A stretch of DNA of 64,000 nucleotides from Clostridiales bacterium (GTDB lineage: Bacteria > Bacillota > Clostridia > Christensenellales > Pumilibacteraceae), in assembly GCA_029070965.1 (NCBI GenBank), contig JAIEBI010000061.1, forward strand, positions 1-64,000. Direction: 5' to 3'. The notes under the pieces are model-generated. The model saw only the letters and a list, made by a program, of their open reading frames with translations, was not told the origin of the DNA and searched no databases. The translations under genes and the position numbers were made by a program. This document shows positions 10,717 to 11,027 of this stretch, in pieces; within the stretch, counting starts at the first letter, position 1, and each line of letters starts with the position of its first letter.

Positions 10717-10791
10717 GCCACTATAGTCTAGAGGTTAGGACGTTGGCCTCTCACGCCGAAGACCCGGGTTCGATTCCCGGTGGTGGTGCCA
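10717..10791 (+). tRNA. tRNA-Glu (anticodon CTC)
   Basis: A 75-nt cloverleaf with encoded CCA. The acceptor GCCACTA pairs with TGGTGGT (10781-10787), the discriminator is G. The anticodon stem TTGGC/GCCGA encloses the loop CTCTCAC, so the anticodon is CTC (GAG codon). The T arm is CCGGG-TTCGATT-CCCGG. The 3' 17 nt (10773-10789) recur as an exact inverted copy at 10831-10847, beyond the terminator. Confidence 0.92.
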
Positions 10792-10847
10792 CAAAAAAGA
10801 CATATGCATCCGCATATGTCTTTTTTGTTAGCACCACCACCGGGAAT
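10773..10847. repeat. 34-bp inverted repeat including the tRNA 3' end
   Basis: The outer arms (10773-10789 and 10831-10847) are exact inverted copies of the tRNA 3' end; the inner arms are the terminator stem. Together they form a near-continuous palindrome of 75 nt, interrupted only by 1 and 2 unpaired bases at the junction. Confidence 0.85.
10791..10828 (+). terminator. Terminator of tRNA-Glu
   Basis: A perfect 17-bp stem (10791-10807 with 10812-10828), loop ATCC, ending in six T. The stem starts at the last base of the encoded CCA. Confidence 0.9.
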
Positions 10848-11027
10848 GGAGTGCGGCAGTTGCACAGCAATAATACCGAATTATCTCACAATCAACATAA
10901 AAGCTATTATTATTGCTCCGCTTGCAGCCGCACGGTTCGGACGCTTGCGCGTAGCGCAAAGGTCGCCCGCGCTGTTCGCGGGCATTCCCGCGTGGTGTGT
11001 GCCCCACCCCGCGAATGGAGTGCGACA
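10831..11027. repeat. Structured non-coding block with direct repeats
   Basis: No gene. A segment of about 28 nt at 10831-10858 recurs with few changes at 11000-11027 (both contain GAATGGAGTGCG). Between them lies an imperfect inverted repeat (about 10851-10875 with 10908-10933) starting GTGCGGC and ending GCCGCAC. The block lies between the tRNA terminator and the clpX terminator. It may be a decayed or mobile repeat unit. Confidence 0.6.

Follow-up and report, generated by a model that had tools for sequence, protein, structure and literature searches.

Mirror copy at tRNA-Glu(CTC)

Why does an exact inverted copy of a tRNA 3' end lie on the far side of that tRNA's own terminator? The question arises at the tRNA-Glu(CTC) gene of a Clostridiales bacterium of the family Pumilibacteraceae (assembly GCA_029070965.1), within positions 1 to 64,000 of contig JAIEBI010000061.1, the stretch analysed here and called the window. 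An earlier note on this DNA had reported the copy and read it either as the mark of a past insertion or as an RNA fold that hinders tRNA maturation. We found that the mirror copy is real, neither chance nor artefact, and that it is one arm of a larger repeated element. We are highly confident that a genus-restricted family of structured, tRNA-anchored, cassette-like elements exists. The family appears to be undescribed, and a literature search found no description of such elements.

ARAGORN identified tRNA-Glu(CTC) as the sole tRNA gene of the window. The parts of the mirror copy are:

10717-10791, + strand: tRNA-Glu(CTC), CCA encoded, T-loop GTTCGA (ARAGORN; Rfam tRNA, 64 bits)
10773-10789, + strand: tRNA 3' segment that has the inverted copy, T-loop A58 through the first C of CCA, sequence ATTCCCGGTGGTGGTGC
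10791-10828, + strand: element-type intrinsic terminator with a perfect 17-bp stem, beginning at the A of CCA
10831-10847, - strand: left arm, antisense copy of the tRNA 3' strand, GCACCACCACCGGGAAT, tRNA-specific across copies

The inverted copy was confirmed as described, the left arm being the exact inverse of 10773-10789. The final base of ATTCCCGGTGGTGGTGC is the first C of CCA; a single unpaired C follows, and then the terminator, whose arms (10791-10807 and 10812-10828) pair at 17 of 17 positions around the loop ATCC and are followed by TA. Arms and terminator together give 34 paired bases. The joint hairpin was predicted to fold as RNA at -82 kcal/mol (z = -10.2), and none of 200 shuffles was equally low.

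The element and its distribution

We searched the bacterium's own genome with the downstream DNA and found a second locus behind tRNA-Lys(CTT), whose flanks match tRNA-Lys and not tRNA-Glu. Among 20 genus genomes, the same core recurs behind a variety of tRNAs, at a near-constant distance of about 125-162 bp. The plan is constant: a tRNA with CCA, a terminator, an antisense copy of that tRNA's 3' strand and the left strand of hairpin P1, then about 66 A-rich bases, the right strand of P1, GTTCGCTA, hairpins P2 and P3, and a sense copy of the tRNA from the T-loop onward. The size of the element is constant at about 200 bp, and GTTCGCTA is invariant in most copies. In the window, these parts are:

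10842-10987, + strand: whole structured element, covariance-model match of 97.8 bits
10851-10857, + strand: P1 left strand GTGCGGC (covariation)
10927-10933, + strand: P1 right strand GCCGCAC (covariation)
10935-10939, + strand: GTTCG, the near-invariant opening of the core; most copies have GTTCGCTA, and this one is 3 bases shorter
10940-10963, + strand: P2 hairpin TTGCGC-GTA-GCGCAA with a conserved internal loop (covariation)
10965-10983, + strand: P3 hairpin GCCCGCG-CTGTT-CGCGGGC (covariation)
10984-11003, + strand: right arm, sense copy of the 3' end of tRNA-Glu in decayed form, ATTCCCGCGTGGTGTGTGCC

Because GTTCGCTA is short by three bases and the right arm is decayed, the window copy is probably old and inactive.

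With the covariance model, this genome gave 12 copies; 17 of the 20 genus genomes had copies, more than 150 in all, and the tRNAs that they follow are of at least 15 kinds. In other genera of the family, 54 genomes yielded one clear and one marginal copy, and about 275 genomes from other families of the order had no copy. When 84,980 species genomes were scanned for the pattern, 62 loci were returned, of which 61 were in records titled Clostridia or a taxon within it, mostly of the same genus. Among them was the mouse-gut isolate Anaerocaecibacter muris CLA-AA-M11, a species placed in Pumilibacteraceae by NCBI. A Pelagicoccus match was judged to be chance. A blastn search of phage and plasmid collections with one element gave no matches. 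The sole match on a viral contig was also attributed to chance; it lies among phage head-packaging genes, inside what by eye is a small-terminase-like open reading frame.

The earlier note had called for a comparison of the locus in relatives and for a check on a fold-back assembly artefact. The arrangement recurs, with other terminator sequences, behind tRNA-Glu in further genomes of the genus, including the A. muris isolate. Several contigs of metagenome-assembled genomes (MAGs) do end at these tRNAs, as such an artefact might produce. Since independent assemblies contain the element with diverged sequence, and an isolate genome contains it too, assembly error is no explanation, and we regard its probability as negligible. 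At L010, L024 and other MAG loci, several contigs stop exactly at or near the tRNA-Glu CCA, which is expected if arrays break assemblies there.

Covariation of the hairpin structure

The structure was evaluated by a covariation test on 95 distinct copies with shuffled controls. Standard pairs occupied 94.1% of pair cells compared to 75.0% after shuffling. Cells in which both bases had changed numbered 376 against 97.5 in the shuffled controls, and 21 of 25 pairs contained double changes; these counts are biased towards the model, as the alignment was fitted to it. Shifting the partner by 1-3 columns abolished the signal. Compensating variants of P2 are also discernible by eye (TTGCGC/GCGCAA, TCGGCG/CGCCGA, TTGGC/GCCAA). 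Wobble pairs showed a mild lean towards the tRNA-sense strand (39 G.T vs 20 A.C, p = 0.018), which fits either RNA or the top DNA strand as the folding strand. Among the models of Rfam 15, only that of the tRNA itself attained its gathering score, leaving the element without a known RNA family.

Arms matched to the tRNA and a core shared within genomes

A GTTCGA T-loop precedes each of the 46 copies that have a tRNA within 170 bp, and the core itself starts with GTTCG. In this genome, the element was present at 10 of 26 GTTCGA tRNAs and at 0 of 8 GTTCAA tRNAs (p = 0.04). The right arm suits its own tRNA best in 38 of the 46 copies, most others being off by one early base. The left arm matches its own tRNA over 8.9 bases on average, whereas the best of 2000 reassignments reached 6.5; no match in the series exceeds 17 bases, and the window copy reaches this length.

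The core behaves differently. Similarity across P2-P3 was 0.764 between different tRNAs of the same genome, compared to 0.722 for the same tRNA in different genomes and 0.721 for unrelated pairs, and none of 500 label shuffles gave as large a within-genome excess. The core is thus alike within a genome and the arms are matched to the tRNA, and therefore the core spreads or homogenises among loci while the arms fit the tRNA. There was one clear mismatch between arms and tRNA: at L294/L250, in another genus (g4), arms of tRNA-Arg(CCG) stand behind an intact tRNA-Thr(CGT).

These results bear on the possibility that the unit is a functional RNA, transcribed by read-through or from its own promoter, whose antisense arm pairs with the pre-tRNA and regulates its 3' maturation or abundance. 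The covarying hairpins, the lean of the wobble pairs and the tRNA-matched antisense arm are what such an RNA would display. However, the antisense match falls to 4-6 bases in many copies, the arm at L294 suits another tRNA, and inheritance of the core does not follow the tRNA. Also against it are the tandem units, the displaced tRNA ends, the cargo genes and the absence of the element from orthologous tRNAs, all reported below. We consider a functional RNA unlikely. The narrower proposal of the earlier note, an RNA that folds against the tRNA and hinders its maturation, found no support, with the inverted arm behind a strong terminator, a match that varies from about 4 to 17 bases among copies and, at one locus, an arm suited to a non-adjacent tRNA.

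Displaced tRNA ends, arrays and cargo

Many units are followed by a complete displaced tRNA 3' end that includes CCA, and then by a different terminator. At tRNA-Arg(CCG), the terminator displaced behind the unit in genome G000 is the one found directly behind the tRNA in G011, and by this comparison of sequences the two loci are a filled and an unfilled site. The contents at tRNA-Ala(CGC) also differ, with orthology assumed from the common upstream sequence: a plain terminator together with a gene was found in G000, a unit free of cargo in G014, and in G015 a unit containing an Mrr-type nuclease gene. The past insertion at a tRNA 3' end suggested by the earlier note is supported and reaches well beyond one locus: the inverted copy belongs, as one arm, to a repeated element behind which displaced tRNA 3' ends lie.

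Units occur in tandem at Glu, Trp, Tyr, Met and Leu tRNAs, among others. Cargo genes sit between the tRNA and the right end, or between units, and include:

L192: Mrr_cat nuclease
L253, 936-1670, reverse strand: Thg1-like protein (PF04446), directly behind tRNA-Ser(GGA)
L231: HNH nuclease
L270: DNA-binding regulator and a weakly FtsK-like ATPase
L197: 23S_rRNA_IVP four-helix protein
L191: CPCC protein and DUF4417 protein

Some cargo genes begin shortly past the terminator without a clear promoter, and cargo may be expressed from the tRNA promoter. The Thg1-like cargo is an enzyme of the tRNA-repair type stored beside a tRNA gene. In this genome, the Thr-CGT, Val-GAC and Arg-ACG loci (L126, L143, L145) have only a left arm and the P1 left strand, followed by other sequence; these partial copies are likely decayed or replaced units.

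Two further origins were weighed against this evidence. First, the origin could be passive: a REP/MITE-like repeat close to tRNA genes could be joined with template switching during replication at the terminator hairpin, by which the tRNA 3' end is copied in inverse. Alternatively, the pre-tRNA could have undergone self-primed reverse transcription. Fold-back copying at the terminator predicts precisely such a left arm, which ends in the T-loop. Such a process leaves the sense right arm, the near-constant tRNA-to-core spacing and the cargo unexplained, and only 3 of the 20 genus genomes encode a reverse transcriptase (PF00078), which also led us to reject this enzyme as the driver of the elements. 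A passive origin is therefore improbable in our assessment. Second, the units could be scars of ordinary tRNA-targeting genomic islands, that is, leftover att regions that have lost their own integrase. A restored tRNA with a displaced 3' fragment is the mark of tRNA-gene (tDNA) islands (PMC4383910), and the T-loop position agrees. Against this, the size is constant at about 200 bp and about 15 kinds of tRNA share one covarying core, scars are not expected to retain a conserved three-hairpin structure, and a linked integrase was not found. We assign island scars a low probability.

Proposed cassette model and candidate enzyme

We somewhat favour the reading that the elements are non-autonomous, integron-like mobile cassettes, which insert at the tRNA T-loop and restore the tRNA 3' end. 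One unit would run from A58 through the tRNA 3' strand, CCA, terminator and optional cargo genes, and continue through the antisense arm, P1, GTTCGCTA, P2 and P3 to the next A58. Insertion would spare the tRNA because the unit supplies its own 3' end, and the old 3' end would be pushed behind the unit. Tandem arrays could arise from repeated insertion or from unequal exchange. The antisense arm, P1-P3 and the sense arm may fold together as one DNA strand into a branched hairpin that serves as an attC-like recombination site, with cutting in the T-loop. Mobilisation would then take place in trans by a tyrosine recombinase, possibly a single XerS-like enzyme common to all these genomes.

A XerS-like tyrosine recombinase, one per genome, was found in 20 of the 20 genus genomes, and in G019, G008, G003 and G002 it was the only PF00589 match (in G002 as part of a gene only). 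That the elements hijack this Xer enzyme, as Xer-dependent (IMEX-like) mobile elements do at a dif-like site, is a guess. IS110 was rejected as the driver, as its DEDD transposase (PF01548) was present in 0 of the 20 genomes.

Several observations weigh against mobile cassettes. We found no dedicated recombinase, and G019 has 16 model matches with the XerS-like protein as its only recombinase. XerC/D-like integrases are unlinked to the elements, no integrase lies within the units examined, and no circular form or excision was seen. The attC core motifs are GTTRRRY and RYYYAAC; a comparison by eye, without a formal scan, detected neither, and the invariant motif of the elements is GTTCGCTA. attC is recombined as its bottom strand, unlike the wobble lean to the tRNA-sense strand, which would also suit RNA. 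Cargo-bearing units numbered only about a dozen, part of the arrays could be due to gene conversion or duplication, and the mismatch at L294/L250 departs from the pairing of arms and tRNA.

A XerC/D-like recombinase family of 295 aa (L201-L205, L221) occurs in three copies in G015 with varied flanking genes, unlinked to the elements. One of these flanking genes encodes a possible restriction-type nuclease.

Second core family

An unrelated core was found in the same plan. In this genome it follows Leu-TAA; in relatives it follows Leu, Thr-TGT and Arg-ACG genes. Its antisense arm spans the whole T-loop, with a displaced 3' end behind it, and seven copies fold into three hairpins with 10 double-changed pairs. 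Since the second core has the same layout, the plan is more general than one repeat. The loci are:

L136, 213-440 (G000:C48), L297, L298, L300, L301, L305, L312, L313 and L315: second-core loci, mainly behind leucine tRNAs

The second core holds AGCGAAC, the reverse complement of GTTCGCT in the first family, possibly by chance.

A broader reading, which we advance tentatively as the less probable proposition, is that this is a categorically new cassette-storage system. tRNA genes would act as attachment sites and promoters for cassette arrays, a folded single-strand site would have arms that address one tRNA, the host chromosome-dimer recombinase would act on it, and at least two unrelated cores would be used (A at GTTCGA tRNAs, B mainly at leucine tRNAs).

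Relation to known systems

The elements resemble both tDNA islands and integron cassettes and fit the full definition of neither. Like integron cassettes with attC, they have a short, folded, covarying site-like structure behind zero or more genes, with site arms that pair mutually, and they form arrays in which a site with the potential to fold stands behind cargo that includes nucleases. Unlike integron cassettes, they are anchored at tRNAs, their arms match the individual tRNA, and many units are cargo-free. An integron integrase was not found: representatives of the two main tyrosine-recombinase groups scored 62.7 and 99.1 bits against a TIGR02249 cut-off of 265, and rarer integrases were not scanned.

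In tDNA islands, an element-borne 3' end keeps the tRNA whole and the displaced fragment lies behind (PMC4383910). Such islands have their own integrase. The elements share with such tRNA-targeting integrative elements (tDNA genomic islands, tycheposons) the intact tRNA, the displaced 3' fragment at the far end and the T-loop site. They differ in being about 200 bp long and non-coding, with one core at about 15 kinds of tRNA, an inverted tRNA arm, tandem arrays and no integrase of their own in the units examined.

REP/BIME and MITE repeats are likewise short, palindromic, interspersed and non-autonomous, but the elements are bound to tRNA 3' ends and their ends change with the target, whereas MITE ends are fixed. 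In IS110 bridge-RNA and TnpB omega-RNA systems, too, a structured core lies beside target-matching sequence. The elements differ in that none of the 20 genomes has an IS110 transposase and the units themselves encode no transposase; no search for TnpB was made.

If the units are mobile, they would constitute an integron-like gene-capture platform in gut Clostridia across many tRNA genes, with defence-type cargo and a self-addressing recombination site. They would also show that one module can serve many tRNA targets and leave them unbroken, and could offer a small programmable insertion site. If the units are instead RNAs, they would be a new tRNA-linked RNA family. An isolate is available for testing either reading.

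Further features

The window holds traces of other units:

11001-11026, - strand: second, older left arm with a P1-like tail, remnant of a further unit, GCCCCACCCCGCGAATGGAGTGCGAC
59-189, + strand: a second element, present as its right end, with a right arm of Ala-GGC type, AACCCGCTTA; the tRNA side falls outside the contig

The core of the element at 59-189 also adjoins tRNA-Ala(GGC) in G000:C43, and the contig probably starts inside an array of units. Another interspersed palindromic repeat, GGCGGGTGCTTG...CAAGCACCCGCCATAGTGCCA, is absent from the window and occurs in L125, L239, L280, L188, L230 and others, in several cases near elements or cargo genes.
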